Positions 2,053-20,967 of a stretch of 64,000 bases of DNA are shown here, in pieces; position 1 is the first letter of the stretch, and every line of letters starts with the position of its first letter. The stretch is from Caballeronia sp. SBC1 (GTDB lineage: Bacteria; Pseudomonadota; Gammaproteobacteria; Burkholderiales; Burkholderiaceae): assembly GCF_011493005.1 (NCBI RefSeq), contig NZ_CP049159.1:186001-250000 (forward strand), in the 5' to 3' direction. The notes beneath the pieces are model-generated. The model saw only the letters and a list, made by a program, of their open reading frames with translations. It was not told the DNA's origin and did no database searches. Both the position numbers and the translations under genes were made by a program.

Positions 2053-2645
2053 CCTCACTGAGTTAAAATTCGAAAAATGCAAGTAATCGTTGAATTTGTC
2101 CTTGAAAAAAACGTAGGCTTTTACTTCCCAGACAAGGTTTCATCTCAACTTGATAGATATTAGCTTGCTGTTCTCGTGAGTGCCGAGTTCTCGCTTGTTT
2201 TTCTTGGACCCGGGCTTGCTCTGGTCTCGGTGCTCCCCATCCTGAACGCTGATCCATTTTCCGGTGATGCGATCCGGCATGGCCGGTTCCCTTCGTGCAC
2301 CAGATTCATCGTCAGGCGGAGTGATCACACTCACGTCGCTCCACTCCTCACTCAATGCCTTGATGCTCTCGTAGTTGACTATCTGGGGCTCACATCGCTC
2401 AGCACGTCGCTCGCGATGGACTCAGTTCGGATCTTCCTGTCCCGCGTATCGCTCATCGGTCAGTATGCCTTGAACTGGTTCGTGGGGCCCTGTACTGGCG
2501 AGTGAGTGAACCCACGCGCATTTCATCTATCGCGGCGAGCATCACGTTGATCGTCTTGATTGGTCTTTCAATTTGAAGAAGCCGTTTGTGCCTTCAAACC
2601 GCATATTTATGCAATACTTTGGAGTACAAAGTAATATAAGGGATA
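2053..2645. other. 593-bp stretch with no recognisable gene
   Basis: It lies between the IS4-family element and the second transposase. Short open frames occur on both strands, the best being a 71-codon minus-strand frame at 2140-2355, but none has a convincing ribosome binding site or recognisable protein sequence. The left terminus of the second insertion sequence must lie here, but I could not pair it with the right end near 4127. Confidence 0.5.
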
Positions 2646-5114: not shown

Positions 5115-7922
5115 TCAGACGCTGCTTAACCGCGCCAGTTCGGTGTCGACCAGCAGCTTCTTCAGTTCCGGCACGCAGGACCCGCAGTTTCCGCCGGCTT
5201 TCACGCACGCGGTAATCTCCGCAGCGGTCTTTAGCCCCTGCTCGCGAATCGCCGCGCAGATCGTGTTGCGCCCGACACCGAAGCACGAGCAGACTATGGG
5301 TCCCGTATCGGCGCCCTTGCCGATCGGCTGGCCGAGCAACAGACCGACGCGGTCCTCCTCGTCGAGCTTGTACTTTGCAAACAGGCTCGCGAGCCACGCA
5401 CGCGCCGGCAACTCTGGACGCGCTGATACGAAGACGCAGTTTTCGATACGATCGCCGACCAAGTGCACGGCGCGATAGATACCCGCCGTGCGGTCCTCAT
5501 ACTCGAGCCAGTCGGCGTGCGGATCATCAATGCTGAACAGCGCGCGCGCCCAACTGCCATGATCCTCGTCTGCGTTGAGCGGGTTGCGACCCGCGAGCTC
5601 GTAGCGCACGAACTGCGCGCCATAAACACGGGTCCAGTACGTGACACCGTCCAGTACCGGGGCGTGGCGGCTCAGCGAGAACCCGTGCCAGGAGACGTGA
5701 AACTTGTCAACGCGAACCGGCGTATGTTTGAACTCGGGCTCCCCGGAGACCGGATCGACCGCCGGATTCACCACTGCACCGACGCGAGCGTCGGAGGCGA
5801 CCTGATCGTTCCAGTGAATCGGCACAAACACGCTGCCGCGCGACATGCCGCCACCATGCTGCACGCGTGCGACCATCGCACCCCAGCGGCTCGATACGCA
5901 TGCCAGTTCACCTTCACGCACACCGCACGACAGTGCATCCTGTGGATGCATGTCGACAAACGCTTCCGTCACATGACCTGCCAGCTTTTCCGACTTACCC
6001 GTGCGGGTCATTGTGTGCCATTGGTCACGTATCCGGCCAGTGTTCAACGTCAGCGGATATTCGTCATCCGGTGCGTTGGCCGGAGTGCGTGGCGGCGTCG
6101 CGACGAAACGCGCCTTGCCATCAGCGTGGCTATAGCGGCGATCGCCGAACAGCCGCGCTGTGCCATGCACGGCCGCGTCTTTCGTCGCGAGAACTGGCCA
6201 CTGGACGGGCTGCAACGCGTCGTAACGTTCGCGACCGAGGCCGACGAGGCCAGCCAAGTTGAACGCGCGGCGCACGCTGCCCTCGATCAGCTCGTCGCCA
6301 ATTCCGTTAGCGATCTGGCCACCCTCGTTGCGCCAGGCGCTCAGCCGCGCGTGCTCATCGAAAATCTCGTGCGGGCCAGAGAAATCGAAGCCCGCATAGC
6401 CCATCCGCTGCGCAACGTCGCAGATGATCCTCCAGTCAGCGCGTGCTTCTCCGGGCGCCGGAAGGAACGAACGCTGGCGCGAGATCCTGCGCTCGGAGTT
6501 GGTGACGGTGCCGTCCTTTTCTCCCCAGCCGAGCGCCGGCAGCAGGATATGGGCAAACGCATTGGTGTCGGTGTTCTCAACAATGTCGGAACTGACAACG
6601 AGTTCGCAGCGCGCGAGCGCGCGCTTTGCCTGGTCGCCGTCGGGCAGGCTCACGACTGGGTTCGTGCCCATGATCCAGACCGCCTTGATCCTGCCTTGCT
6701 CGATCGCCTCGAAGAGTTCGACTGCCTTGAGTCCCGGCCGCGAGGCGATGGCAGGTGCTCCCCAGAATATCTGGACCAGTTCGCGATGCCCAGGGTTGTC
6801 GAGTTCCAGATGTGCGGCCAGCATGTTCGCGAGACCGCCAACCTCACGCCCACCCATCGCGTTTGGCTGTCCGGTGACCGAGAACGGCCCCATCCCTGGT
6901 TTGCCGATACGGCCGGTCAGCAGATGGCAATTGATAATGCTGTTGACCTTGTCTGTGCCAGAGGTGGACTGGTTCACGCCTTGTGAATACACCGTCACCA
7001 CCCGCTCGGTCCGCGCGAAGAGTCGATAGAACTCGAGGAGATCGTGCGTGTCGACTTTGCAGGCCTTGGCGCACTGCCCAAGGTCAAAGCCATTCGCTGC
7101 GCCGGCTGACGCGGCATCGAGCGCCTGCGCATAGCCGGTCGTGTGTGCGTCGACGAAACCGGCAGCGCTCGCGCCATGTTCCGCGAGAAAACTGAGCAAG
7201 CCGTTGAACAGCCAGACGTCGGTGCCCGCCTTCAGCGGCAGGTGCAGGTCAGCCATTTCACAGGTCGCGGTATAGCGCGGGTCGATCACGACCACCTTCA
7301 TATTGGGCCGCGTTTCCTTCATCTTGATGATTCGCTGGAAGAGGATCGGATGGCACCACGCCGTATTCGACCCGACCAGCACAACGAGGTCCGCCAGTTC
7401 GAGGTCCTCGTAGCACACCGGCACCAGGTCCTCACCGAACGCTCGCTTGTGCCCAGCGACCGACGATGACATGCACAAGCGCGAATTGGTATCGATGTTC
7501 GCGCTGCCGACATAGCCCTTCATCAGCTTGTTTGCGACGTAGTAGTCCTCGGTCAACAACTGCCCTGAGACGTAGAGCGCGACGGCATCCGGGCCGTGCT
7601 GATCGATGACCCGGCGAAAGCCGCCAGCGACCGCATCGAGCGCATCGCTCCAAGACACGTCGCGCAATGCGCCGCTGGCCGGCTCGCGCAGCTTCGGATG
7701 CAGCAGGCGTCCGTCGAGCCCGATTGTTTCGCCGAGCGCCGAGCCTTTCACACACAGCCGGCCGTAGTTCGCTGGGTGGAGTTCGTCGCCGGCAATGTCA
7801 AGCTGGCCATCCGGGCGCGCAGTCGCGCGAACGCCGCAGCCGACGCCGCAGTACGGACAGGTGGTGCGCACAGCGTCGCGGTTCCCTTCTGGCGCCCTGG
7901 AAATGACAATGGGGAAATTCAC
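5115..7922 (-). CDS. nasA: Assimilatory nitrate reductase catalytic subunit
   Basis: This cytoplasmic molybdenum enzyme reduces nitrate to nitrite for assimilation. The 935 residues hold an N-terminal [4Fe-4S] site (C22, C25, C29, C57), a Mo-bis-MGD core with the molybdenum cysteine C150 in NSRLCMSSSV, and the family motifs GTNPVVSLPDG and GRIRDQWHTMTRTG. The C-terminal 60 residues form a BFD-type [2Fe-2S] domain (CSCFGVGRNTIC and GNCGSC), typical of the NADH-linked NasA type. It is the last gene of nirB-nirD-reductase-nasA, starting 13 bp after its neighbour, which is its likely electron donor. Length and motifs are normal. Control is presumably from the nirB promoter and leader. Confidence 0.95.
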   Translation of the reverse strand: MNFPIVISRAPEGNRDAVRTTCPYCGVGCGVRATARPDGQLDIAGDELHPANYGRLCVKGSALGETIGLDGRLLHPKLREPASGALRDVSWSDALDAVAGGFRRVIDQHGPDAVALYVSGQLLTEDYYVANKLMKGYVGSANIDTNSRLCMSSSVAGHKRAFGEDLVPVCYEDLELADLVVLVGSNTAWCHPILFQRIIKMKETRPNMKVVVIDPRYTATCEMADLHLPLKAGTDVWLFNGLLSFLAEHGASAAGFVDAHTTGYAQALDAASAGAANGFDLGQCAKACKVDTHDLLEFYRLFARTERVVTVYSQGVNQSTSGTDKVNSIINCHLLTGRIGKPGMGPFSVTGQPNAMGGREVGGLANMLAAHLELDNPGHRELVQIFWGAPAIASRPGLKAVELFEAIEQGRIKAVWIMGTNPVVSLPDGDQAKRALARCELVVSSDIVENTDTNAFAHILLPALGWGEKDGTVTNSERRISRQRSFLPAPGEARADWRIICDVAQRMGYAGFDFSGPHEIFDEHARLSAWRNEGGQIANGIGDELIEGSVRRAFNLAGLVGLGRERYDALQPVQWPVLATKDAAVHGTARLFGDRRYSHADGKARFVATPPRTPANAPDDEYPLTLNTGRIRDQWHTMTRTGKSEKLAGHVTEAFVDMHPQDALSCGVREGELACVSSRWGAMVARVQHGGGMSRGSVFVPIHWNDQVASDARVGAVVNPAVDPVSGEPEFKHTPVRVDKFHVSWHGFSLSRHAPVLDGVTYWTRVYGAQFVRYELAGRNPLNADEDHGSWARALFSIDDPHADWLEYEDRTAGIYRAVHLVGDRIENCVFVSARPELPARAWLASLFAKYKLDEEDRVGLLLGQPIGKGADTGPIVCSCFGVGRNTICAAIREQGLKTAAEITACVKAGGNCGSCVPELKKLLVDTELARLSSV

Positions 7923-7935
7923 GTTCGGTTCCGGT

Positions 7936-9213
7936 TCATGCGGGCTGAGCCTCGCATAGTGCCTTGCCGAACAGCAGCTGGCTGCGCAGTGCAGAAATGT
8001 CGGTCCGGTTCTGGATCAGCTCGAAGTACCATGCTCCGTCCTTGACATCCCCGTAAAGGACTGCGCCGATCACGCGGCTACCCTCGATCACCAGACGCTT
8101 GTAGACGCCGCGGCGCGGATCTCGCAGCACCAGGTCTTCACTACCTGGGCCACCGATGAAGTCGCCAGCGGAGTACAGGTCGACCCCGGTGACCTTCAGC
8201 TTGGTCGCGGTAGCGCTCTGCACGAAACGGCGGTGGCCCGCGCCCGCCAAGTGCGCCCCGCACACGCGTGCCTGGTCCCAGATCGGTGCTACCAGGCCGA
8301 AAGTCGCCATCCGGTGTTGCACGCATTCGCCGACAGCGTAGATGCGCGGATCGTAGGTCTGCATCGTGTCATCGACGACAACCGCACGCTCGCAGTGCAG
8401 ACCAGCCTGTTGAGCGAGCTCAATGTTCGGGCGCACCCCGGCCGTCATCACAACGAGGTCAGCAGGAATCTCAGTGCCATCGTCAAAGCGCACCGCGGTG
8501 ACGCGATCCGACCCGACGATCTCCGTCGTGCGGGCGCTCAGCAGGAAACGTAGCCCCTTGCGCTCCAGCGCCTGTTGCAGCAGGGCCGAAGCGCTCCTGT
8601 CGAGCTGCCGCTCCATCAGGCTGTCCATGACGTGTACAACGGTCACTGACATGCCTTGGCGCAGGAGTCCGTTCGCCGCCTCCAGGCCGAGCAGGCCGCC
8701 GCCGATGATCACCGCATGACGATGATGACGCGCCGCGGTGAGCATCGTTTCGACATCCTGGATATCGCGAAAGGCGATCACCCCGGGCAATTCATGACCC
8801 GGCACCGGAATCAGGAACGGCTTCGAGCCGGTCGCGAGCAGCAGCCGGTCATAGCCCACCTCGACGCCGCCTCGCGAGCGTACGACTCGGCGCGTGCGGT
8901 CGATCGCGACCACAGGATCGCCCGCATGCAGTCGGATACCGTTATCTTCGTACCAGTCACGCGTGTTGAGGATAATGTCATCGACACTCTTCTCGCCCGC
9001 GAGCACTGGCGAAAGCAGGATGCGGTTGTAGTTGCCGTACGGCTCGGCGCCGAATACGGTGATGTCATAGAGGTCCGGCGCAAGCTCGAGCAGTTCCTCG
9101 ACAGTGCGCATGCCAGCCATGCCATTGCCGACGACAACGAGACGCGGGCGCGGGTGGGAAGGCGCGGTGAACGATGCGCCTCCTGAGGTCTGCGCGGCGT
9201 ATTCGCGCCTCAT
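7936..9213 (-). CDS. FAD/NAD(P)-dependent reductase, NirB-like N-terminal type (NasB-like electron donor)
   Basis: A 425-residue flavoprotein that probably passes NAD(P)H electrons to NasA. It has two Rossmann motifs (VVVGNGMAG near 26 and VIIGGGLLGLE near 165) and the second FAD motif IYAVGECVQH. It matches the N-terminal half of NirB throughout, including YGNYNRILLSPVLAG, but lacks the BFD, sirohaem and FeS parts. The start at 9213 is chosen because its ATG overlaps the nirD stop as ATGA; a longer frame to 9288 runs into nirD. It is co-directional with nirBD and nasA with minimal gaps, so one operon is very likely. Confidence 0.85.
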   Translation of the reverse strand: MRREYAAQTSGGASFTAPSHPRPRLVVVGNGMAGMRTVEELLELAPDLYDITVFGAEPYGNYNRILLSPVLAGEKSVDDIILNTRDWYEDNGIRLHAGDPVVAIDRTRRVVRSRGGVEVGYDRLLLATGSKPFLIPVPGHELPGVIAFRDIQDVETMLTAARHHRHAVIIGGGLLGLEAANGLLRQGMSVTVVHVMDSLMERQLDRSASALLQQALERKGLRFLLSARTTEIVGSDRVTAVRFDDGTEIPADLVVMTAGVRPNIELAQQAGLHCERAVVVDDTMQTYDPRIYAVGECVQHRMATFGLVAPIWDQARVCGAHLAGAGHRRFVQSATATKLKVTGVDLYSAGDFIGGPGSEDLVLRDPRRGVYKRLVIEGSRVIGAVLYGDVKDGAWYFELIQNRTDISALRSQLLFGKALCEAQPA

Positions 9214-9557
9214 GCAGCGACCCATACCTTGCCGCTCTCGACGCGCACCGGATAGGCGCTGACCGAATGCTCGGGCGCCTCGAGGCACTCGCCGGTGCGC
9301 AGATCGAAATGTTGCTTGTAGATTGGCGAGGCAACCACGATGCGCTCACCGAGGTTGCCGATCAACCCGCGCGAAAGCACCGCTGCCTGCGAACACGGAT
9401 CGTAGTTCTGGATCGCGTACACGCTGCCCTCGCCGCCCGCGACATGGAACACCGCCACCTGTGCGCCGTTCACGAGCGCGCACACGCCGGTATTGGGCAC
9501 GATGTCGCCGAGCGCGCACACCTTCACCCAGGATTGCGTGATTCGATCGTTGTTCAT
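9210..9557 (-). CDS. nirD: Nitrite reductase (NADH) small subunit
   Basis: A 115-residue Rieske-fold subunit of the cytoplasmic siroheme nitrite reductase, partner of NirB. Typical features are WVKVCALGDIVPNTG at the N terminus and IYKQHFDLRTGECLEAPE. The metal-binding Cys/His pairs of true Rieske proteins are absent, as is normal for NirD. The start at 9557 (MNNDRITQ) is preferred over the upstream in-frame ATG at 9680, which would overlap nirB. The gene begins 31 bp after nirB and its stop overlaps the next start. Confidence 0.93.
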   Translation of the reverse strand: MNNDRITQSWVKVCALGDIVPNTGVCALVNGAQVAVFHVAGGEGSVYAIQNYDPCSQAAVLSRGLIGNLGERIVVASPIYKQHFDLRTGECLEAPEHSVSAYPVRVESGKVWVAA

Positions 9558-9588: not shown

Positions 9589-12168
9589 TCAAACGGTCTC
9601 GACGACCACGGGAACGGGGAACTGTTTCGCTTGCCGCTCGGAAGGCGTGGCGGGACGGATCTGGCCGCGCTCCTCGACAAAGGTCACGTTCTCGTCGACC
9701 TTGTCGCTGTTGACGAAATGGCGGAAGCGCTTGCGGGTCTCGGGATCGGTCACGGCTTTCTTCCACTCGCACTCGTAGGTACTGACCACGTGCTGCATCT
9801 CCACTTCCAACTCCGCGGCGAGTCCCAGCTTGTCGTGCACCACGACGTCGATCAGATATTCGAGGCCGCCCTCGAGATTGTCGCGCCAGACGCTCGTGCG
9901 CTGCAGACGGTCGGCCGTGCGTACATAGAACATCAGAAAGCGGTCGATGTAGCGCACCAGCGTCTCGCGATCAAGATCCGCTGCGAGCATTTCGGCGTGG
10001 CGCGGCTTCATCCCGCCGTTGCCGCACACATAAAGATTCCAGCCCTTTTCGGTGGCGATGATGCCGACGTCCTTGCCTTGGGCTTCAGCGCATTCGCGGG
10101 TGCAGCCTGACACGCCGAACTTGAGCTTGTGCGGCGAACGCAGGCCCTTGTAGCGGTTTTCCAGGACCACGGCGAGCCCAACCGAGTCACCGACGCCGTA
10201 GCGGCACCACGTCGAGCCTACACACGACTTCACGGTGCGCAGCGATTTGCCGTACGCATGACCCGATTCGAAGCCGGCCGCGATCAGTTCTTCCCAGATC
10301 AGCGGCAACTGATCCACCCGCGCGCCGAACAGGTCGACGCGCTGGCCGCCGGTGATCTTTGTATAGAGCCCGTATTTCTTCGCCACCTGGCCGACTGCGA
10401 TGAGGCCTTCGGGCGTGACCTCGCCGCCGGGCATGCGTGGCACGACCGAGTAGGTGCCGTCGCGCTGGATGTTGGCGAGGTAGTAGTCGTTCGAGTCCTG
10501 CAAGCCTGCATGTTCCTTCTTCAGCACGAACTCGTTCCAGCACGAAGCGAGAATCCCGGCGACGGCGGGCTTGCAGACGTCGCAGCCCAGGCCGTGCCCA
10601 TGCTTTTCCAGAAGCGCGCTAAAGGCCTTGATACGCTCGACGCGCACAATGTGATACAGCTCCTGGCGCGAGTACGGAAAGTGCTCGCACAGGTGGTTGT
10701 TGACCGCGAGCCCCTGCTTCTTCATCTCGGCCTTCATCACCTGCGTGACGAGCGGCACGCAGCCGCCGCACGAAGTGCCGGCGCACGTCGCGCTCTTCAC
10801 TGCACCGATACTGGTCGCGCCCGTACATACCGCTGCGCAGATTTCGCCTTTGGAGACGTTGTTGCATGAGCAGATCTGCGCGGTCTCGGGCAGCGCATCG
10901 ACCCCGAGCCCCGGCTTGGCCTTGCCGTCGCTTTGCGGCAGGATCAGGAATTCAGGCGCGTCGGGCAACTCGATGCGGTTGAGCATCATCTGCAGCAGCG
11001 TGCCGTATTCGGCCGCGTCGCCCACCATCACGGCGCCGAGCAGTTGCTTGCCGCACTCCGACACCACCAGCTTCTTGTAGACCTGTTTGCGCTCGTCACT
11101 GAACTGGTATGTGCGGCTGCCCGGCGTCTTGCCGTGCGCATCACCGATGCTCGCGACATCCACGCCCATCAGCTTGAGCTTGGTGCTCATGTCCGCACCG
11201 CCAAAACCGGCCTGATCGCCCAGCAAGTGCTTCGCTGTGACGCGGGCCATCTCATAGCCAGGCGCGACGAGCCCATACACCATGCCGTTCCAGGCCGCGC
11301 ATTCGCCGATTGCGTAGATGTCGGAGTCGCTCGTGCGGCAGGTATCGTCGATCGCGATGCCGCCGCGCGGACCCAGTTCGAGGCCGCAGGTGCGCGCGAT
11401 CTCATCGCGTGGACGAATGCCCGCGGAGAACACGATCATGTCGGTGTCGAGGTGCGTGCCGTCGGCGAACTGCATGCGGTGCGTGCCCGACTCGCCGTCG
11501 ACAATCTCGAGCGTCTGCTTGCTGGTGTGGACCTGCACACCCAGTTCCTCGATCTTGCCGCGCAGCACCCGTGCGCCGCCATCGTCGACCTGCACCGCCA
11601 TCAGGCGCGGCGCAAACTCGACGACGTGCGCCGTGAGTCCCATGTCGTGCAGCGCCTTCGCGCATTCGAGCCCAAGCAAGCCGCCGCCCACCACCACGCC
11701 CGTCTTGGCCCGCACACCGCAAGCCTGCATCGCTTCGAGATCTTCGATGGTACGGTAGACGAAGCAGTCCTTACGGTCGTTGCCCGTGATGGGCGGCACG
11801 AATGGCGAGGAGCCGGTGGCGAGTACCAGTTTGTCGTAGGAAAGCGTCTCGCCGCTTGAGATCCTCACGGTGCGAGCCGCGCGGTCGATCGACACGGCCT
11901 TCGCGTTGAGCTTGAGCAGCACGTTCTCGCGCTCGAAGAAGCCGGGCTTGACGAGCGACAGATCCTGCGCAGACTTGCCCGCGAAGAATTCGGACAGGTG
12001 CACGCGGTCATACGCGGGTCGGGGCTCCTCGCACAGCACAGTAACGTGCAGCGTCGACCTCGCGTCGTCGACAAGGCATTCAAGAAGCTTGTGACCCACC
12101 ATCCCGTGGCCAATGACGACAACGTTCACGAGAGGGGTTTCATTCATTTCCAACGCGGTTCGCGACAT
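9589..12168 (-). CDS. nirB: Nitrite reductase (NADH) large subunit
   Basis: This enzyme reduces nitrite to ammonium in the cytoplasm using NADH, FAD, FeS and siroheme. Domains in order: FAD/NAD-binding half (VVIGHGMVG, then VVVGGGLLGLE, then IYAIGECAAWN); a BFD-type [2Fe-2S] domain (CSCNNVSKGEIC and CAGTSCGGC); and a siroheme/[4Fe-4S] half with C-x5-C in CVGSTWC and C-x3-C in GCTREC. The start at 12168 (MSRTALEMNE) has GGACG a few bases upstream; 12147 is an alternative. The frame extends to 12309 but that part would overlap the leader and terminator. First gene of the assimilation operon. cobA, which serves siroheme synthesis, diverges from it. Confidence 0.95.
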   Translation of the reverse strand: MSRTALEMNETPLVNVVVIGHGMVGHKLLECLVDDARSTLHVTVLCEEPRPAYDRVHLSEFFAGKSAQDLSLVKPGFFERENVLLKLNAKAVSIDRAARTVRISSGETLSYDKLVLATGSSPFVPPITGNDRKDCFVYRTIEDLEAMQACGVRAKTGVVVGGGLLGLECAKALHDMGLTAHVVEFAPRLMAVQVDDGGARVLRGKIEELGVQVHTSKQTLEIVDGESGTHRMQFADGTHLDTDMIVFSAGIRPRDEIARTCGLELGPRGGIAIDDTCRTSDSDIYAIGECAAWNGMVYGLVAPGYEMARVTAKHLLGDQAGFGGADMSTKLKLMGVDVASIGDAHGKTPGSRTYQFSDERKQVYKKLVVSECGKQLLGAVMVGDAAEYGTLLQMMLNRIELPDAPEFLILPQSDGKAKPGLGVDALPETAQICSCNNVSKGEICAAVCTGATSIGAVKSATCAGTSCGGCVPLVTQVMKAEMKKQGLAVNNHLCEHFPYSRQELYHIVRVERIKAFSALLEKHGHGLGCDVCKPAVAGILASCWNEFVLKKEHAGLQDSNDYYLANIQRDGTYSVVPRMPGGEVTPEGLIAVGQVAKKYGLYTKITGGQRVDLFGARVDQLPLIWEELIAAGFESGHAYGKSLRTVKSCVGSTWCRYGVGDSVGLAVVLENRYKGLRSPHKLKFGVSGCTRECAEAQGKDVGIIATEKGWNLYVCGNGGMKPRHAEMLAADLDRETLVRYIDRFLMFYVRTADRLQRTSVWRDNLEGGLEYLIDVVVHDKLGLAAELEVEMQHVVSTYECEWKKAVTDPETRKRFRHFVNSDKVDENVTFVEERGQIRPATPSERQAKQFPVPVVVETV

Positions 12169-12182
12169 GATTTTCGTCCGGC

Positions 12183-12236
12183 AAATAAAAAACGTCCCGC
12201 GGATCCAGTCGTCAAGCGACTGAATTCGGGGGACGT
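12183..12236 (-). terminator. Intrinsic terminator inside the nirB leader
   Basis: On the minus strand ACGTCCC (12230-12236) pairs with GGGACGT (12192-12198), enclosing a second small hairpin CAGTCG/CGACTG, and is followed at once by a run of six T then ATTT. It ends only about 15 bases before the nirB start codon, where a simple terminator would block the operon. It therefore reads as a conditional attenuator. Confidence 0.85.
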
Positions 12237-12308
12237 CATTGTCCAAAAGCCCGTTAGCTAAAGAGGTGACTTTTGCTGCATGCTGGCCGGACCGTCGTTG
12301 GTCTGCCA
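12183..12308 (-). promoter_or_regulatory. Nitrate-responsive antitermination leader of nirB (ANTAR target type)
   Basis: Two short hairpins with six-base loops precede the terminator. P1 is GACC-AACGAC-GGTC (12290-12303), P2 is GGAC-AATGAC-GTCC (12231-12244). Both loops have A at position 1 and G at position 4, the known ANTAR-protein recognition pattern. The 3' arm of P2 is the 5' arm of the terminator, so holding P2 folded would prevent termination. NasR of Klebsiella and NasT proteins work this way. No ANTAR protein is encoded in the window; the regulator is inferred. Confidence 0.85.
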
Positions 12309-12318
12309 CGCATAATTA

Positions 12319-12334
12319 TGCAAAGGGCGTGCCA
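12319..12334 (-). promoter_or_regulatory. Sigma-54 promoter of the nirB operon
   Basis: The minus strand reads TGGCAC-GCCCT-TTGCA, a perfect -24/-12 element. The predicted transcription start is near 12308, five bases before the P1 hairpin, which fits the leader exactly. Confidence 0.88.
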
Positions 12335-12419: not shown

Positions 12420-12436
12420 GGCACAAGGGCGGTGCA
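12420..12436. promoter_or_regulatory. NtrC-like site 2 upstream of nirB
   Basis: GCAC-AAGGGCG-GTGC matches the NtrC dyad core perfectly. It is centred two helical turns (21 bp) from site 3. Confidence 0.65.
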
Positions 12437-12440
12437 GTGC

Positions 12441-12457
12441 AGCACATGATCCGTGCA
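12441..12457. promoter_or_regulatory. NtrC-like site 3 upstream of nirB
   Basis: GCAC-ATGATCC-GTGC matches the NtrC dyad core perfectly. The pair with site 2 resembles an NtrC enhancer. Confidence 0.65.
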
Positions 12458-12856
12458 ACATGTCCAATGAAGGTGGCTGGTTTTGGCCGTGATCCTGAGC
12501 AAACCTTAGTGAGCGGCCTGGAGTCTTCTTGCATGAGGCGTCGCGGGTCGTTGTGGCGACTTCCTCGCAAGTGCGCGGTCTGGTGGAGACCGCCGCGCCC
12601 TGCGCGCGTTCGTGCCGTCGTGTCGAGTCATTGCATTACGTCCTGGTCAGACGCAATCTGGCGTGGATATTGCCTCCGTCTGCATGCGCGGCAACGATGC
12701 CGGCGCACAGAAGCAAGCTGCATGTGGCGCGTGATTCGCCCACGCGCAGCACAAGCAGACAAGTTCAGGACAACGGCGTCCCCTCGTTCAACGCGACGAG
12801 CGGACGCCTTTTTCATTGGGCGGTGCGCTCGTCTAACAAGCCGCATCAGGACGTAT
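12458..12856. other. Non-coding upstream region of cobA
   Basis: About 400 bp between the NtrC-like sites and cobA. An open frame continues upstream of cobA to 12239 but crosses the nirB control region and has no protein-like sequence before the ATG at 12857. No other gene is seen. Confidence 0.4.
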
Positions 12857-13681
12857 ATGGACATCACCACAGCCACGGGCAAGGTCACTTTACTTAGCGC
12901 GGGTCCGGGCGACCTCGATTTGCTCACGATCCGGGCAGCGAAGCTGCTGGCAACCGCCGATGTGGTGCTGCTCGACGATCTCGTCAATCCCGAGATCGTT
13001 TCGCTGGCACCGCAGGCACGCGTCATCAAGGTCGGCAAGCGCGGCGGATGCAAGTCGACCCCGCAGGCGTTCATTCAGCGCCTGATGTTGCGCTACGCGC
13101 GCGCGGGCCGTCACGTGGTGCGTGTGAAAGGCGGAGACGCCCTGCTGTTTGGACGCGCTGGCGAAGAGCTGGCGGAATTGCGGCGCGCACAGATTCCGTA
13201 CGAAATCGTCAATGGAATTTCGTCTGGGTTTGCCGCGGCGGCAGGCCTCGGTATTTCGCTGACGCATCGCGATCACTGTCAGGGTGTGACGTTCATCACC
13301 GCGCATCTGCGCGACGGCAGCGAACCCGACTGGGCCGTGCTTGCCGCCGCCGGCACGACGCTCGCAATTTATATGGGCATGAGCCGCATCGAGAGCCTGT
13401 GTGCTTCACTCATGTCGACCCTGCCGGGCAGCACGCCCGCTGCGGTGGTTCAATCGGCGGGCGGCACCGCCGAGCGGCGCGCGCTCGCGACACTCGACTC
13501 TCTTGCCGCGAGCGCGCGTGCCGCCGGTCTTGGCAGCCCGGCCGTTATCCTTGTTGGCAACGCGATCGGCGCGGCGATGGCGTGCACTCTACACGAGTCA
13601 AGCGCGGGCCAGATCGATGCATTGCCGCTCTCTTCCCATGCGCGGTGCGGCGCGCACGATGCGGCTTTGCGCAGCGCCTGA
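12857..13681 (+). CDS. cobA: Uroporphyrinogen-III C-methyltransferase
   Basis: A 274-residue SAM-dependent enzyme that methylates uroporphyrinogen III to precorrin-2, the first step toward siroheme, the cofactor of NirB. Family motifs are GPGDLDLLTIRAAKLL near the N terminus, VVRVKGGDALLFGRAGEE near residue 90, NGISSGFAAAAGLGI, and GTTLAIYMGM. It lacks the oxidase/ferrochelatase part of CysG, so siroheme must be finished by another enzyme. The ATG at 12857 follows AGGA by a few bases; the longer frame is not coding. The gene diverges from the nirB operon across about 690 bp. Residues after about 245 are poorly conserved, as usual. Confidence 0.9.
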   Translation: MDITTATGKVTLLSAGPGDLDLLTIRAAKLLATADVVLLDDLVNPEIVSLAPQARVIKVGKRGGCKSTPQAFIQRLMLRYARAGRHVVRVKGGDALLFGRAGEELAELRRAQIPYEIVNGISSGFAAAAGLGISLTHRDHCQGVTFITAHLRDGSEPDWAVLAAAGTTLAIYMGMSRIESLCASLMSTLPGSTPAAVVQSAGGTAERRALATLDSLAASARAAGLGSPAVILVGNAIGAAMACTLHESSAGQIDALPLSSHARCGAHDAALRSA

Positions 13682-13875: not shown

Positions 13876-15276
13876 TCACGCACCGCTATCAGCGCGCGCC
13901 CCCGCAGCCTGAATCGGGTTCGCAACGACCAGGCTCTCTGCAGGCAACGCCCACGTGAGCCAGCGTGCGCGATGCAAGGCGACCAGCGCGAAGGCAAGCG
14001 CCGAGATGACGCCAAAGGTCGCAAAACCCATCTGATAGCTGCCGGTGCTTTCCTTGGCCATCCCCATGACGACTGGCAGATAGAATCCCCCGATCCCGCC
14101 TGCTGCGCCGATGATGCCGGACATCAACCCGGTCTTACCCTTCCAGCGTTGCGGCACCAGTTGGAACGTCGCACCATTGCCGAGCCCGAAACACAGGTAG
14201 GTGACCACCAGCAGCACAATCCCGGCCGGCAGCGGTGGCATCCACGCGGCGAACGTAAAGTCGCACGCAGAGATTCCGGCGAGCAGCAGGACAAGCGCGC
14301 GCACACCCGAAATCCGGTCCGCGATTAGACCGCCGATCGGGCGCACGAGCGCACCAGTGAAAGCGAGCAGCGACATGAACAGACCCGCCTCCAGCTTCGG
14401 CAATTGATACAGCGACACCAGCAGCGTGGTCACGTAGGACGACATGCCGACGAAGCCGCCAAACGTGATGCTATAGACCAGCATCACCACCCACGTATCC
14501 CCTTCTACCAGCACGCTGCGGTAATGCTTCGGCAATACCCCGATGGCCAGTAGCGCACCCAGCACCGGCAGCAGCAACACGCCCGTTTTGCCCGCGCCGA
14601 AGACACCCGCGTGTACAGCCAGCACGAGCGCGATCAGTCCGGCGAGCGTAATGCAGAAACTGCCGAACGCGCGCGACGCGCTACCCGACTTGGGTCCCAG
14701 ATCCTTCGCCCAAACGAATAGCGCTGACGCTGCCAATGCCAACAACGGCAACGCAGCGCCCGTCGCTTTCGCCCAGCCGAAATGCTCTGCGAGGTCCGGG
14801 AACATGAATCCGTCGAGCACCGCGCCGATGTTGCCCGCGGCGGCGAGCCCGAGCACGAGGCCCTGCACCTTGGGTGGATAGTTGCTTCCGGCCATCGGCA
14901 GCGCGACGGCGAAGCTTGCACCACCGACGCCGAGAAACACGCCGAGCACGAGCAGCAACGTATAGGACGGAGCAGACGGCGACAGCAGCAGGATGACAGA
15001 AGGCAAAGCCGACAGCGCGATACCCATCAACGCAATGCGCCGGCCGTTGTGGGCCTGATACAGGTTGCCGAGCGTCACTCGCAGGATGGCCGCGCCAAGC
15101 ACCGGAACCGCAACCAGGAAGCCCAGTTCGGCGGGAGACATCGCTATATCTTTGTGGATGAACGGCGCGAGTGGCCCGAACATCACCCACACGGTGAAAC
15201 CGGTATCGAAGTAGAGGAAACACGCAAGCAACGCGCGCCAGTTACCGCTCGATAGCGAATTCAGCAGGTTTTTCAT
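13876..15276 (-). CDS. Nitrate/nitrite MFS transporter (assimilatory NarK/NrtP type)
   Basis: A 466-residue inner-membrane transporter with about 12 hydrophobic segments. It carries the nitrate-porter signatures GVGGASFAVALPMAG, YPPKVQGLVLGLAAAGN and GFVGMSSYVTTLL. It should import nitrate for NasA. It starts 24 bp after the PilJ-domain gene, so the two share one transcript and the sigma-54/antitermination control found upstream of that gene. It is clearly distinct from the respiratory NarK at 32249-33484. The last 20 residues (AGARADSGA) are low-complexity tail. Confidence 0.9.
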   Translation of the reverse strand: MKNLLNSLSSGNWRALLACFLYFDTGFTVWVMFGPLAPFIHKDIAMSPAELGFLVAVPVLGAAILRVTLGNLYQAHNGRRIALMGIALSALPSVILLLSPSAPSYTLLLVLGVFLGVGGASFAVALPMAGSNYPPKVQGLVLGLAAAGNIGAVLDGFMFPDLAEHFGWAKATGAALPLLALAASALFVWAKDLGPKSGSASRAFGSFCITLAGLIALVLAVHAGVFGAGKTGVLLLPVLGALLAIGVLPKHYRSVLVEGDTWVVMLVYSITFGGFVGMSSYVTTLLVSLYQLPKLEAGLFMSLLAFTGALVRPIGGLIADRISGVRALVLLLAGISACDFTFAAWMPPLPAGIVLLVVTYLCFGLGNGATFQLVPQRWKGKTGLMSGIIGAAGGIGGFYLPVVMGMAKESTGSYQMGFATFGVISALAFALVALHRARWLTWALPAESLVVANPIQAAGARADSGA

Positions 15277-15299: not shown

Positions 15300-16025
15300 C
15301 TATTGAAAAGCGCGATCAGCACGGATGTGCTGATCTTGCGGACGAACGCTGCTTCGAGGCGACGCCTCGTCGGCGCTATGCGTGTTGACGACGCTATGGA
15401 TCAACTGGTCCATCTCCTTGATGATGTCGGCGAGTACCGTGGTGATCACCGCGAATTCCCGGCCGAATTGCCCCGCACGCGCGGCGGCGATGCGCGCATT
15501 GAGGGCCACGATATTGGACTGCGTGGAGATGTTTCCGAGCCGCTCTGCGATGTCGCTCTGACGCTTGAGCGAAGCGGTCTCGACGCTGCGCATCTTCTGT
15601 TGATAGGCGAGCGTTATTTCCTGCAGGAGTTCGAGCAGCGGCGTCGCTTGAACAACGAGTGCATCAGTCTTCTCGCGACCGTCGGTCGTGCCCGACTCGA
15701 GACACGACACAGCGTGATGCGCTTGCGCGATAAATCGCTGGATCCTTTCGTCTGCGCCTTGAGTGCCGAAATAGAGCTGATGCAGGGCTTCCGAAAATAC
15801 GCCCGTCAACGGACCATCGCCGCTTACGAGGTCGGCGTGCGTTTGCGCAAACGTGGTCAGGCAGTCCTTGACCACTGTCAGTGCGGCGCCATCGCCGTGT
15901 GATGCGAGCAGCACATGCAGAACGATGCGCTGCGAGAGCATCCGCTGCCTTCCTGACAGATTGATGAGCTGTCCGATGGTCCGCGCTGAGATTTCTTCGC
16001 GGCTTGATTTTGTCCACTGCTTCAT
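15300..16025 (-). CDS. Soluble PilJ-domain (NarX-like sensor) protein with truncated chemoreceptor tail
   Basis: A 241-residue protein with no membrane segment. Residues 10-120 match the PilJ/NarX sensor family; INLSGRQRMLSQRI resembles the nitrate-binding P-box of NarX. About residues 160-215 resemble the signalling helix of chemoreceptors (NISTQSNIVALNARIAAARAGQFGREFAV) but the downstream half is missing. In McpN and NarX such domains bind nitrate. Here it probably senses cytoplasmic nitrate for uptake control or relays to chemotaxis; the role is inferred. The start at 16025 (MKQWTKSS) places it after the leader. The frame to 16157 would overlap the terminator. First gene of a two-gene operon with the nitrate transporter. 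Confidence 0.75.
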   Translation of the reverse strand: MKQWTKSSREEISARTIGQLINLSGRQRMLSQRIVLHVLLASHGDGAALTVVKDCLTTFAQTHADLVSGDGPLTGVFSEALHQLYFGTQGADERIQRFIAQAHHAVSCLESGTTDGREKTDALVVQATPLLELLQEITLAYQQKMRSVETASLKRQSDIAERLGNISTQSNIVALNARIAAARAGQFGREFAVITTVLADIIKEMDQLIHSVVNTHSADEASPRSSVRPQDQHIRADRAFQ

Positions 16026-16108: not shown

Positions 16109-16175
16109 AAAAAAAAGCGTCCCGAGCAGCAACCGCGCCCCGATTGCTCGGTCGCACAGTTGACGCTCGGGACGC
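16109..16175 (-). terminator. Intrinsic terminator in the leader of the PilJ-transporter operon
   Basis: On the minus strand GCGTCCCGAGC (16165-16175) pairs with GCTCGGGACGC (16117-16127) and is followed by eight T (16109-16116). It stands between the sigma-54 promoter and the first gene, so it must be conditional. Confidence 0.88.
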
Positions 16176-16248
16176 CGTTGTCCCTGGTGGCCGCTCTACA
16201 TGAGCGGCCGGAGAAGATTCGATACGCTGAGGCCTCCGTTGGCCCCGG
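16109..16248 (-). promoter_or_regulatory. Second ANTAR-type antitermination leader, PilJ-transporter operon
   Basis: P1 is GGCC-AACGGA-GGCC (16231-16244). P2 is GGGAC-AACGGC-GTCCC (16169-16184). Both have six-base loops with A1 and G4. The 3' arm of P2 is the start of the terminator stem. The arrangement copies the nirB leader, including P1 lying about four bases after the predicted transcript start. The leader is about 220 bases to the start codon. Confidence 0.87.
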
Positions 16249-16258
16249 TCCGAATCAA

Positions 16259-16274
16259 TGCAATAGCCGTGCCA
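16259..16274 (-). promoter_or_regulatory. Sigma-54 promoter of the PilJ-transporter operon
   Basis: The minus strand reads TGGCAC-GGCTA-TTGCA, a perfect -24/-12 element. Predicted start near 16248. Confidence 0.88.
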
Positions 16275-16494
16275 AAATCCGCGTGGCGCGGATCATCCGT
16301 ACTCTCATCGGCACGTTCCAACGTTGCGCCAATCGGCTATTGGTAAGCCCAGCGGGGCTCGGCAATTCAATGATGTATCACCCGATCGTCGAATTTAATG
16401 AAAATCGGCAGGTTCATCGCACTGCACGTGATAGTTTGTCGCTCACTGCGAAACACGGATTTGCGACCTGAGTTGGTGCGATGCGATGATGCAC

Positions 16495-16511
16495 CGCACT
16501 ATGACTGTGCG
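16495..16511. promoter_or_regulatory. NtrC-like dyad upstream of the PilJ-transporter operon
   Basis: GCAC-TATGACT-GTGC matches the NtrC core. It lies about 220 bp upstream of the sigma-54 promoter, plausible for an enhancer. Confidence 0.5.
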
Positions 16512-16713
16512 CCACGTGGACCCAGGCTGCAACGTCACAGTCAGCCGGTGGACCATCGAGCAGCGTGACGACGTGCAGTCGCACACCACTAGCGCATCGC
16601 GCTCCAGTCACGGCCCATCATCCGGACCGATAGCGCTGTCGGCAGTGAACGCGACGCCTGAGGTTCGCCTCATGTTCTTGGCTCGGGGGGATGCATCGAC
16701 CTAGTCGGCACAC

Positions 16714-16737
16714 AAAAAAAAGCACCCCGAGGGTGCC
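16714..16737 (-). terminator. Strong intrinsic terminator without a cognate gene
   Basis: On the minus strand GGCACCC-TCG-GGGTGC is followed by eight T. No open frame ends just upstream of it on that strand. The AT-rich stretch before it (CAACAACAATAATAAGG) and the six-base dyad ACCACT-N2-AGTGGT at 16818-16831 suggest a small RNA or leader transcript, but no promoter is certain. Confidence 0.7.
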
Positions 16738-17056
16738 TTAAATGAACCTTATTATTGTTGTTGGTCTCTCTCGCACGGATCCCAAATGCCGAAGGCGCCT
16801 CAGTAAGTGAATTGAAACCACTACAGTGGTGACTTGGAGATGCTCCGATACGTGAGGGTACTAACGGCACGAATCGGTCAAACTTGAGGGATTTGGGAAA
16901 TCTACTAATCGCAACGAAATAGGCAAAAATCGAAATTAACCCCTCCCATCCGTGAGTAGTGCGAGAAACATGAAGGGCGAACCCTCACATACCGGCGATA
17001 TTAATGTGTCTGGACAAAGCAGTCCTGATCATCGATCAATGGAGCCAACAATCTCT
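16738..17056. other. Non-coding region upstream of the lone terminator
   Basis: Relatively AT-rich for the window, without a supported open frame. If the terminator at 16714 ends a small RNA, its 5' end would be here. Confidence 0.4.
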
Positions 17057-17800: not shown

Positions 17801-19339
17801 ATGTCGATTCAACACAAAATGCTGTACTCCGACAATAGCGTTGTGAGCGCTTTGTGGCGACCCGTTTGCGATCTCCTGGGTTGCACGTGGCCGATCGTGC
17901 TGGCTGGGATGGGTGGGGTTGCGCGCGCAGACCTTGTGACCGCAGTCACGCTGGCCGGAGGCTTTGGCTTTCTTGGGATGGTGCGTGAACCGACAGAATT
18001 GATCCGCGACGAGGTCCGGCAAATACGCACACGCACCGATCGCAAGTTCGGCGTCAACTTGATCCCGGCCGCCACTGCCGCCGACCTGCTAGACGCGCAA
18101 ATCACCACCTGCATTGAACTCGGCGTCCCAGTCGTCGGGTTGTTCTGGGACGTCGTACCTGCTGTCATCCGGCGGCTACGCGATGCGGGGATCCTGGTGA
18201 TCTACCAGGTCGGTTCGATCGAGGACGCGCGGGCCGCTGAAGCGGCCGGCGCGCAGGTACTGATTGCCCAAGGACAAGAGGCTGGCGGCCATGTCCGCGG
18301 CGACCGACCGCTCGGACTGCTGCTGCGCGAGATCGTGGCGGCCACGAGCCTTCCCGTCCTCGCGGCAGGCGGCATCGCAGACGGGGTCGATGTTGCGACC
18401 GCCCTCTCCTTCGGTGCCCAGGGAGTCGTGCTCGGCACCGCATTCATCGCCACCGACGAATCCTTCGCTCATACGTATCACAAACAACGCATCGTCGATG
18501 CCGCCGAAGATGAAACGCTTCTGACGAACGCGTTCCACATCAACTGGCCGGAAGGCGCACGGGTACGCGTGCTCCCCAACAGCGTCACGCGTGGTCATCG
18601 GGGCAATCCATTCTGCACTGTCAAAACCGTAATCGGAGAAGAACAAGGTCGGCCGATCTATCTGTTCAGCACCGACTCACCGCTGTGTTCGATGACGGGC
18701 GATTTCGAGGCGATGGCCCTCTACGCCGGTACAGGAGCAGGAAGAGTCAACGCGATTACCGGAGCGGCTGAGCGTCTGCATCGCATCGTGACGGATGCAG
18801 CCGCGCTGGTTGGAAGCGGCTCCGAACCTGCGCACGAATCTGTGGCACTGGCCTCCCCCGTGTGCTTTGCCGACGAGATGGACGAGGTACAGATGGGATA
18901 CGCGAGCCGGGATGAGCTACTCGCGGCCCTGAACGAATTGTTGGAGGCCGAGCGCGCGGGCGCGCAGGTGACGTCGCAAACGGCGGCGGCGATGACCGAT
19001 TCGCCTGTCAAAGCACTCGTGACGAGCATTTGCCGAGACGAAGCGCGTTGGTGCAATGTACTGACAAGAGCAATTCTGTCGCTACATGGCACGCCCACCC
19101 GGCGTACCGGCGCGTTCTATGAAAAGGCGATGGCCATCGGAGATTTGCCGCAACGCATGGCGTTTCTTAATCGCGGGCAGGAGTGGGTGGTGCGCAAGCT
19201 ACAAACGCTGCTGCCGGGAATCCGCGACGAACATATCCAGAACGATTTTGCCGCCATGCTTGCTTCGCATGAGGCGAACATCAGGCGCGTCCAATCGAAT
19301 CTTTCCGCACCGGGCGACCGTGAACCGCCGAAGGGCTGA
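17801..19339 (+). CDS. Nitronate monooxygenase with C-terminal helical domain
   Basis: A 512-residue FMN-dependent enzyme. Residues 20-340 form the TIM-barrel of the nitronate monooxygenase family (LAGMGGVARADLVTAVTLAGGFGFLGM, then AQGQEAGGHVRG with the catalytic-type histidine, then LAAGGIADG and FGAQGVVLGTAF). It would oxidise nitronates such as propionate 3-nitronate, protecting the cell. Residues about 375-505 are a helical extra domain (LNELLEAERAGAQV, ICRDEARWCNVLTRA), which I recall as DUF6306, possibly ferritin-like. The start at 17801 follows AGGAGAGTGCC. Its setting among NO and nitrate genes fits nitro-compound stress. A dyad upstream suggests specific control. Confidence 0.82.
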   Translation: MSIQHKMLYSDNSVVSALWRPVCDLLGCTWPIVLAGMGGVARADLVTAVTLAGGFGFLGMVREPTELIRDEVRQIRTRTDRKFGVNLIPAATAADLLDAQITTCIELGVPVVGLFWDVVPAVIRRLRDAGILVIYQVGSIEDARAAEAAGAQVLIAQGQEAGGHVRGDRPLGLLLREIVAATSLPVLAAGGIADGVDVATALSFGAQGVVLGTAFIATDESFAHTYHKQRIVDAAEDETLLTNAFHINWPEGARVRVLPNSVTRGHRGNPFCTVKTVIGEEQGRPIYLFSTDSPLCSMTGDFEAMALYAGTGAGRVNAITGAAERLHRIVTDAAALVGSGSEPAHESVALASPVCFADEMDEVQMGYASRDELLAALNELLEAERAGAQVTSQTAAAMTDSPVKALVTSICRDEARWCNVLTRAILSLHGTPTRRTGAFYEKAMAIGDLPQRMAFLNRGQEWVVRKLQTLLPGIRDEHIQNDFAAMLASHEANIRRVQSNLSAPGDREPPKG

Positions 19340-19379
19340 CAATCACAATAAGAAAACAACCCTATTCTTCACCCACCGA

Positions 19380-19690
19380 CCTGGACATATCGATGCGCTG
19401 GGAAAAAAACTGGCGCAGTGGGCCGCCAACATACGTGCACGTGCGGACACGCCTGCACGCCTCGCCCTGTGGGACTGACATTCTATGAGCTTGGAACGTT
19501 CGAACAGCCCGCTGTCATGCTCCGCGTGAAATAGGTCGCAGCCAATCGGCTGTTGCTGGACCCAAGCCTCGACAATCTCGGCAAGGCCTGCGTCCAGGAA
19601 TCGATCTGGAAGGCGAGCCGACCGATATCATCGATATCGGCTACGCCCTCCCTCGCGCGTCAATGGGCGCCTCGACAACTGTAATTGAGT
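19380..19690 (+). pseudogene. Remnant of a cyclopropane-fatty-acid synthase-like methyltransferase, N-terminal part
   Basis: Read across frames, the stretch gives LAQWAANIRARADTPARLALWDG, then a shifted ELGTFEQPAVMLRVK, a stop, NRLLLDPSLDNLGKA, and later GIDLEGEPTDIIDIGYA. This is the N-terminal order of Cfa-type lipid methyltransferases. At least two frameshifts and one stop are present, and the catalytic part is gone. The assignment is from remembered family sequence. Confidence 0.55.
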
Positions 19691-19764
19691 AATTCTTATC
19701 AAGTCGCCGCTCCACGAAACTGGCAAGACGGCGACGATGTGATCATCCGGTTCGCGTTTGATGG

Positions 19765-20967
19765 TCAATCGAGCATACCCGAACCAAACACTTCCGTATG
19801 AACGCGCGGCGCATCGACCTCAAGACGCTCGAGCGCTTGCTTCTGCGCAAGCATGAACGGCATCGGTCCGCATACATAAAAGTCCGCGGTCGCGACAAGT
19901 TCATCGTCGACAAGCAAGGACAGGTCGACCCTCCCTGCTGCATCGTAGTCGACGTCGCGAACATCGCCTTCGCCAACCGCTTCGTAATAGATATGCTTCG
20001 TTAGATTGCCGTGCGTCGCAACGCGTTGATTGACCCAATCCTTGAACGCATGAACGCTGGCGTCGCGGCACGCGTGTACGAAGACAATTCGGCGCGCTTG
20101 CTGGTTCTGGGTGAGCGAGGCTAGCATCGAAATCATCGGCGTGATCCCGACACCGCCGCTGACCAATACCACGGGCGTGCGTTTATCCATTTCGAGCGTA
20201 AACACCCCCGCCGGTGCACTGACCTCGACTAGATCGCCGACGCTGACACCGTCATGCAGTACGTTGGAGATGACACCGGGCGAAGCGTCCGCGTTGCCTG
20301 ATTCGCGTTTCACCGAGATGCGCAGATAGTCGCCGTGCGGCGCATCCGACATGCTGTATTGGCGCGGTTGATCGTAGCCGAGTGCATCAATGTAACGCTT
20401 CACACTCACATACTGACCCGGTTTGAAGCTGCCAAGCGGCTCGCCGTCGGCCGGCTGTAGGTAAAACGATGTGATCTCGTCGCTCTCGTGAACCTTGCGG
20501 GCGACGTTGAAACGACGAAACCCTTTCCAGTCGGCGCCGTCGTACAGTTTCTTTTCAGCACCGATCATCAGACCTGCCAATTGTGCATACGCAGCCGTCC
20601 AGGCATCGACAGTCTCGGTATCCAACGCATCGCCGAGCACTTCGACGATCGACGCCAGCAGATGCTCGCCAACGATGTCATATTGAGCTGGCTCAATATT
20701 CAGGCTGACATGCTTGTTCGTGATGTGTGCGACAGCGGGCCCGAGCGCGCCGAGGTCGTCGATATGCGCCGCATAGGCCCATACGGCGCGCGCCAGCGTT
20801 TCGGCCTGGTTACCGCTTTTTTGATTCGTTTGATTGAAAACATTCTTCAATTCAGGATGATGCTTAAACATCCGCTGATAGAAATGTCTTGTGATCGTCG
20901 CGCCGTGCTGAGCCAGGACGGGAGCCGTGGATTTAACCTTCTGTACCTGTGTCGGGGTGAGTTGCAT
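19765..20967 (-). CDS. hmp: Flavohaemoprotein, nitric oxide dioxygenase
   Basis: A 400-residue cytoplasmic enzyme that oxidises NO to nitrate with O2 and NAD(P)H. The globin domain (1-140) has the B10 tyrosine in RHFYQRMF and the proximal histidine in ITNKHVSL. The FAD domain has RQYSMSDAPHGDYLRISVK. The NAD domain has VLVSGGVGITPM and FYVCGPMPFM. Length is normal. The gene diverges from nsrR, and an NsrR-type box lies just upstream of its start, so NO-induced derepression is expected. No defect seen. Confidence 0.96.
   Translation of the reverse strand: MQLTPTQVQKVKSTAPVLAQHGATITRHFYQRMFKHHPELKNVFNQTNQKSGNQAETLARAVWAYAAHIDDLGALGPAVAHITNKHVSLNIEPAQYDIVGEHLLASIVEVLGDALDTETVDAWTAAYAQLAGLMIGAEKKLYDGADWKGFRRFNVARKVHESDEITSFYLQPADGEPLGSFKPGQYVSVKRYIDALGYDQPRQYSMSDAPHGDYLRISVKRESGNADASPGVISNVLHDGVSVGDLVEVSAPAGVFTLEMDKRTPVVLVSGGVGITPMISMLASLTQNQQARRIVFVHACRDASVHAFKDWVNQRVATHGNLTKHIYYEAVGEGDVRDVDYDAAGRVDLSLLVDDELVATADFYVCGPMPFMLAQKQALERLEVDAPRVHTEVFGSGMLD

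Follow-up and report, generated by a model that had tools for sequence, protein, structure and literature searches.

Two-hairpin RNA elements of the ANTAR type, with A1/G4 loops and a second hairpin (P2) that overlaps a terminator, have already been described by Ramesh et al. 2012 (PMC3369931), whose article reports matches in Burkholderia as well as targets that include nitrate/nitrite transporters and nitrite reductase. Studies of Paracoccus report that NasT binds the nasA leader RNA and that nitrate dissociates NasS–NasT (PMC3795266), and that a chromosomal hairpin-I mutant does not grow on nitrate, hairpin I being needed for induction (PMC5424462). Other published observations count against such a mechanism. 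Mutation of Paracoccus HII (which may not equal P2) hardly altered nitrate induction (PMC5424462); in Bradyrhizobium the hairpins are reported missing from most NasT-dependent genes, and narK, which has a predicted hairpin, goes up rather than down without NasT (PMC6759348).

The window analysed here is a 64,000-nt stretch of DNA from Caballeronia sp. SBC1, in which a leader of this architecture precedes an operon of a pilJ-like gene and a NarK-type transporter gene (narK). We conclude that it is very probably a NasT-responsive transcription-antitermination leader of the NasS–NasT/ANTAR kind.

Leader architecture

The original prediction drew a sigma-54 box, hairpins P1 and P2, an overlapping terminator and eight T from this locus, and the minus strand at 16274–16109 contains all of them; the prediction did not name the system as a known ANTAR/NasT antiterminator. 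The box (TGGCACGGCTATTGC, 16260–16274, minus strand) has the −24/−12 form of a sigma-54 promoter, its TGGC and TTG columns invariant in 30/30 aligned leaders. On the same strand follow hairpin P1 (loop AACGGA, 16229–16246), a linker hairpin in the P1–P2 interval (GGCCGCTC-ATGTA-GAGCGGCC, 16189–16209) whose sequence varies across relatives, hairpin P2 (loop AACGGC, 16169–16184) and an intrinsic terminator (16109–16175). The terminator pairs 16175–16165 with 16127–16117 in an 11-bp stem and ends in T8 at 16116–16109; the 3′ arm of P2 is common to both structures, which by sequence and predicted fold are mutually exclusive, as in known ANTAR RNAs. The leader likewise has the two short stems with A1/G4 hexaloops that define ANTAR two-hairpin elements. 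In the minimum-energy fold of the 142-nt leader P1 and the terminator are formed and P2 is not, which matches the expected default-off state.

P1 had been placed four bases after the predicted start. It does lie just past the start, and with +1 set 12 nt past the −12 GC, a convention that we assume here, it begins about 2–3 nt into the transcript. The range first assigned to the control architecture (16109..16511) is too long for the RNA, which is confined to 16274–16109; the remainder is upstream DNA ending at a GCAC-N7-GTGC site. An Rfam scan of the whole window gave zero matches at the gathering cut-off.

Conservation and covariation

Loop conservation was measured in 30 leaders, the pilJ-like/narK leader and 29 loci retrieved through PilJ-like protein similarity rather than through the RNA; because the loci were chosen in this way, the invariance of A1 and G4 in both hairpins (30/30 leaders) is not circular. 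Two loci, L038 and L039 (Comamonadaceae and Rhodoferax), in which the sigma-54 box is present and the hairpins are absent, were left out of this set. The consensus AAYGRM proposed originally fits the four hairpins that it was drawn from and is too narrow for the 30 leaders, where invariance in both loops is limited to A1 and G4. The C–G pair closing P1 is kept in all 30 leaders.

The stems covary, as the original prediction had proposed to check, both in the pilJ-locus leaders and in a mixed set of 38. Both P1 and the terminator stem show strong covariation across the 38 leaders, which serve targets of several kinds. In this mixed set 57 cells carry changes on both sides of a pair against 21.6 in shuffles, and the covariation score is 0.434 against 0.210, values that 0/500 shuffles reach in either case. 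For the terminator stem in the mixed leaders the count is 46 cells against 12.8. Two other measures lie at chance, namely the count of base pairs with changes on both sides, in the mixed set (7 against 6.1, reached by 138/500 shuffles) and in the terminator of the pilJ-locus leaders (1, spread over 12 cells, against 0.9, reached by 439/500). Within the pilJ-locus leaders P1 shows both-side changes at 5/6 pairs. P2, which is constrained by two alternative pairings, shows little variation; in 21/38 rows its outermost bases do not pair, so P2 is a 4-bp stem in many leaders. Controls slid along the alignment fall far below the true structure in cells paired and covariation score (P1, terminator and mixed sets), although a +3 slide of the mixed set of 38 equals it in changed-pair number and pair types. 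In alignment A2, row L144 is misaligned at P1.

These data bear on whether the locus is no more than a promoter with a constitutive terminator or attenuator behind it, P1 and P2 playing no role. The minimum-energy fold favours the terminator, which is strong, but P1 lies outside it and yet covaries and keeps A1 and G4, and the P2 loop is invariant at five of its six positions across the 30 leaders; we regard such an arrangement as very unlikely.

Covariance models and chance

Model R1 was trained on pilJ leaders only; its search of the own genome does not list the nirB leader, and it yields false matches that are plain terminators or lone sigma-54 boxes. A second terminator-like hairpin with a T8 run (window 16712–16740, minus strand) is a weak false match of this kind. 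Model R2 includes own-genome leaders and is therefore circular in that genome, so R3 was built from 32 leaders of other genomes. Searching the 8.85-Mb genome with R3 (150 of 7807 first-look candidates scored) returns the pilJ-like/narK leader at E=8.5e-19 and five leaders altogether at E 8.5e-19 to 8.7e-5, the next match among those scored standing at 0.32.

Chance had been called very unlikely. This is right for the whole architecture, which lies far beyond chance by the R3 value, but not for its pieces taken singly, which are not rare: a loose rule finds 15 A1/G4 hexaloop hairpin pairs on both strands of the window, and the sigma-54 box with at most one mismatch occurs three times against 1.6 expected, the two exact copies being those of the pilJ and nirB leaders.

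Other leaders in the genome

The locus had been described as the second of two instances. The repeat is real (the other copy presumably meant being the nirB leader) and the number an undercount, for R3 finds five leaders in the genome, three of them inside the window, before pilJ-like/narK, nirB and cobA. The nirB leader (12183–12334, minus strand) has its box at 12334–12320, P1 at 12303–12290 (AACGAC), P2 at 12244–12231 (AATGAC) and a terminator. It precedes nirB (9589–12168, start codon inferred), a FAD reductase gene (7936–9288) and the gene for a nitrate reductase catalytic subunit (5115–7922), all on the minus strand. Divergent from it is the cobA leader, absent from the original prediction and found by the models (12659–12819, plus strand; P1 loop AACGAT at 12693–12698, P2 loop AACGGC at 12772–12777, and a terminator), which precedes a cobA/SUMT-like tetrapyrrole methylase gene (12857–13681, plus strand). 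The cobA product would supply siroheme for NirB. R3 places the remaining two leaders on another contig, upstream of an MFS transporter gene and a second nirB (C3:1511511-1511661, minus strand) and upstream of cobA-nasT-nasS (C3:1511940-1512066, plus strand).

Beside the nitrate cluster, window 17801–20967 holds a nitronate monooxygenase-type gene with DUF6306 (plus strand) and a flavohaemoglobin gene (minus strand). A further nitrate ABC-type cluster (L082, C2:1868500-1882500) has a sigma-54 box at C2:1873183 with no ANTAR hairpin pair beside it; this cluster contains an NMT1_2 binding protein and a rubredoxin reductase and neighbours a sigma-54 activator gene with a GAF domain.

Promoter control

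Sequence matches to GCAC-N7-GTGC, which we take to be an NtrC-like site, occur upstream of the pilJ-like/narK box (16496–16510) and twice between the divergent nirB and cobA promoters (12421–12456). By this assumed consensus a site begins 101–238 nt upstream of 5/5 own sigma-54 boxes; since divergent pairs share theirs, these sites fall into three separate regions. The window contains six such sites against 2.56 expected (5/100 shuffles reach six), three of them in promoter regions, and an exact site lies upstream in 13/29 relatives against 0/29 control stretches. A Burkholderia cenocepacia ntrC mutant is reported with fold changes of −8.1 for nasT, −6.5 for nirB and −6.6 for a nitrate/nitrite transporter (PMC5491218).

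A single ANTAR protein

A single trans regulator of uptake and reduction had been suggested from the shared loops, and the genome supports this with one ANTAR protein in 8.85 Mb (83/83 candidates scored), which combines a response-regulator (REC) domain with ANTAR. It adjoins a NasS-like protein whose best solved relative is NrtA, on a contig other than the window's. An REC-like plus ANTAR protein beside an NrtA-like NasS is the arrangement of NasS–NasT.

Leader and protein also occur together across genomes. Among 200 genomes of the family, R2 matches (E<=0.001) occur in 138 and an ANTAR protein in 143; ANTAR is found in 138/138 R2-positive genomes (106/106 without the 32 training genomes), and five ANTAR-bearing genomes have no R2 match. 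With R1, 118 of the 119 family genomes matched have ANTAR, the odd one (G085) being a weak match (E 0.0014). Among 200 genomes of the order, 50 of the 51 with an R3 match have ANTAR, and 48/98 ANTAR-bearing genomes lack an R3 match at the threshold used. Genomes with ANTAR and no model match may reflect missed leaders or other ANTAR systems. The order-level genome G356, which is 67% complete, has a leader and no ANTAR match. These results support coordination of nitrate uptake and reduction by one NasT.

Since loops by themselves do not name a protein, and binding by NasT is here an analogy, another trans-acting factor, either an RNA-binding protein or a small RNA, might read both hairpins instead. 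That seems highly improbable given the ANTAR protein in every one of the R2-positive family genomes and the position of nasT beside or behind a leader in some relatives (L147; G098); moreover, the loop positions reported to define ANTAR targets are A1 and G4 (PMC3369931).

Genes behind the leaders

The 92 leaders examined comprise four from the own genome (two of which, L045 and L048, have weak R1 E-values and were included on inspection), 29 automatic loci and 59 regions taken mostly in rank order among the R1 matches listed. By tblastn matches to 11 reference proteins of the own genome, their first genes are PilJ-like (29), MFS2 (23), NarK (18), NasS/NrtA-like (16; a 'NasS-like' assignment at about 49% may be NrtA-type), cobA (3) and NirB (2), plus one scored as FAD reductase that is more likely nirB. 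A nitrate gene stands first behind 63/92 leaders, and a PilJ-like first gene has one behind it in 10/29; the other 19/29 have no reference nitrate gene in the next 1.5–2.7 kb. A known nitrate gene is thus found behind 73/92, the other 19 preceding a pilJ-like gene without one. With A1/G4 fixed beforehand, an automatic search detects paired hairpins of 4 bp or longer in 87/92, a count that is therefore no proof of invariance.

Outside the family, 49/53 matches have a reference nitrate gene within 1.3–3 kb downstream, the matched gene not always being first (in L203 it starts 1.8 kb behind the leader) and the NarK matches of L200 and L205 being weak (E 7e-19 and 7e-15). Two more have a formate/nitrite transporter gene with a PP2C-kinase protein and one has MobA and MoaA-type molybdenum-cofactor genes, so that nitrate, nitrite or molybdenum-cofactor genes lie behind 52/53. 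The last (L173/L209; L209 at 5294–5398, genome G296) has an EAL gene followed by MCP/HAMP and NIT proteins, a possible link from nitrate to c-di-GMP and chemotaxis under antitermination. In 11/58 order-level loci the automatic search detects no paired hairpins of 4 bp or longer, so these loci rest on model score.

The target counts inside and outside the family reject a random scatter of matches. The original prediction expected hits before uptake and reductase operons only, which is too strict: cobA, moa/mob, nasT-nasS and pilJ-like genes without narK also follow leaders. That the hairpins chiefly affect how the pilJ-like mRNA is translated or how stable it is, we consider extremely unlikely. 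Published ANTAR targets do include some that lie close to ribosome-binding sites or cover them (PMC3369931), but this leader ends in a T8 terminator 83 nt upstream of the inferred start codon, and different first genes share the same leader layout.

The PilJ-like first gene

The operon opens with the pilJ-like gene (15300–16025, minus strand; ATG start at 16025 inferred from relatives) and continues after a 23-nt gap with the gene for a NarK-type MFS nitrate transporter (13876–15276, minus strand; best family TIGR00886 at 260 bits, under the curated cut-off of 312). The 241-aa product of the first gene has a PilJ-domain match and a segment of the MCP tip, the partial MCP signalling match covering only positions 22–75 of the 172 of MCPsignal. 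Neither a periplasmic domain between transmembrane segments nor a full MCP signalling domain is apparent in it. Its aligned relatives share (I/V)N(L/V)x(G/A)RQRMLSQR, to be compared with the N-box [IVL][ND]xAGxQRML[ST]Q proposed for nitrate-binding PilJ domains (PMC6381276). The N-box is exact in 10/22 aligned proteins and present in 20/22 with A/G/S allowed at position 4, where the window protein has S; in two Comamonadaceae-type proteins A replaces G after position 4.

The AlphaFold model is helical and consists of a long hairpin and a bundle of roughly 110 residues (mean pLDDT 75, pTM 0.57). The highest 19-residue hydropathy (1.56, residues 34–52, inside the modelled sensor bundle) lies just below the usual transmembrane threshold of 1.6, so the protein is likely to be soluble and cytoplasmic. 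Against the PDB, the family profile matches MCP tips (E 1e-10), the 'Chemotaxis transducer' chain 6gcv (6e-4) and PilJ (4e-3). Foldseek with the model gave weak matches, none at E<=0.001; its top five include a four-helix sensor domain, NarQ and PilJ, and also unrelated axonemal coiled-coil chains. Function of the PilJ-like protein we infer from such similarities.

narK follows the pilJ-like gene in 22/31 loci and is missing from 7/29 leader-bearing loci (flanks up to 6 kb). Six of these seven (L014, L016, L018, L034, L035 and L037) have no clear nitrate gene nearby in the same flanks, L035 having a weak 27% flavohaemoglobin match. Because the leader is kept even without narK, the pilJ-like gene is probably a NasT target in its own right, and the idea that it is a mere passenger of narK is weakened. 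In L066 the pilJ-like gene is immediately followed by one for a second PilJ-domain protein (2353–3174), which shares its leader.

We see an even chance that the NasT antiterminator controls small soluble nitrate-sensor-like proteins, each a PilJ N-box bundle with a chemoreceptor-tip segment, so that the switch for assimilation governs nitrate-dependent signalling as well. The 19/29 PilJ-like leaders without a nitrate gene, the seven leader-bearing loci that lack narK and the distant leader before EAL, MCP and NIT genes count towards this reading. If it holds, the output of the PilJ-like protein could be feedback on uptake or on NasS–NasT, or input to a chemosensory array. A link between a PilJ protein and NasT appears in none of the titles and abstract openings among the literature matches listed.

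Proposed mechanism

By analogy with the described systems, NasS–NasT would use the ANTAR element in Caballeronia sp. SBC1 as follows. Nitrogen limitation would lead NtrC and sigma-54 to initiate transcription. While nitrate is absent, NasS would hold NasT and the terminator would form, taking the 3′ arm of P2. Once nitrate is present, NasS would free NasT, whose ANTAR domain would bind the A1/G4 hexaloops of the emerging P1 and P2 and hold P2; the terminator would then be blocked and polymerase would enter the pilJ-like gene and narK. Four further leaders would answer to this NasT, those of the nirB operon, cobA, the second MFS–nirB operon and its own cobA-nasT-nasS operon, and with one NasT on five leaders, uptake, reduction and siroheme supply would be switched together. 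The leader on cobA-nasT-nasS would provide positive feedback on nasT. RNA binding by NasT, its release from NasS by nitrate, NtrC dependence and antitermination in the cell are taken over from the systems cited above. Counted against NasT antitermination are the ANTAR genomes without a leader, the shuffle measures at chance, the EAL-first leader, G356 and the 11/58 loci without an automatic hairpin pair.

The analysis yields a well-supported NasT regulon for Burkholderiaceae, with targets predictable genome-wide from sequence, and covarying alignments for an RNA element that has no Rfam match in the window. Whether assimilation control also reaches a soluble nitrate sensor carrying a chemoreceptor-tip segment can be tested on those pilJ-like genes that retain the switch in the absence of narK.

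Comparison with known systems

The ANTAR two-hairpin RNAs that Ramesh et al. 2012 found by covariance search are the same motif as the leaders reported here; in the main text these leaders do not appear to be described singly, nor does the PilJ-like gene (PMC3369931). The Klebsiella nasF leader read by NasR is similar: it stands before a nitrate-assimilation operon and has a pair of A1/G4 hexaloop hairpins, of which the second overlaps the terminator (PMC3369931). NasR, however, is a single protein with NIT and ANTAR, whereas here the NasS-like sensor is separate, and nasF is a single locus against five leaders here. The NasS–NasT pair is common to this genome and to Paracoccus, where it acts with the nasA leader (and is proposed to do so in Azotobacter and Pseudomonas); the present system differs in its five leaders, one of them before cobA-nasT-nasS, and in having a PilJ-like gene among its targets. 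In Bradyrhizobium, NasT is likewise reported to have several targets in nitrogen metabolism; some of them have leader hairpins, but most NasT-dependent genes there are without a clear one (PMC6759348). With the PilJ nitrate chemoreceptors of McpN type, the PilJ-like protein shares a PilJ-domain match, an N-box-like segment and the MCP tip, but it is without apparent flanking transmembrane segments and has only part of the MCP domain. The type of switch and its mechanism are already known; what is more unusual is that it controls a small nitrate-sensor-like gene.
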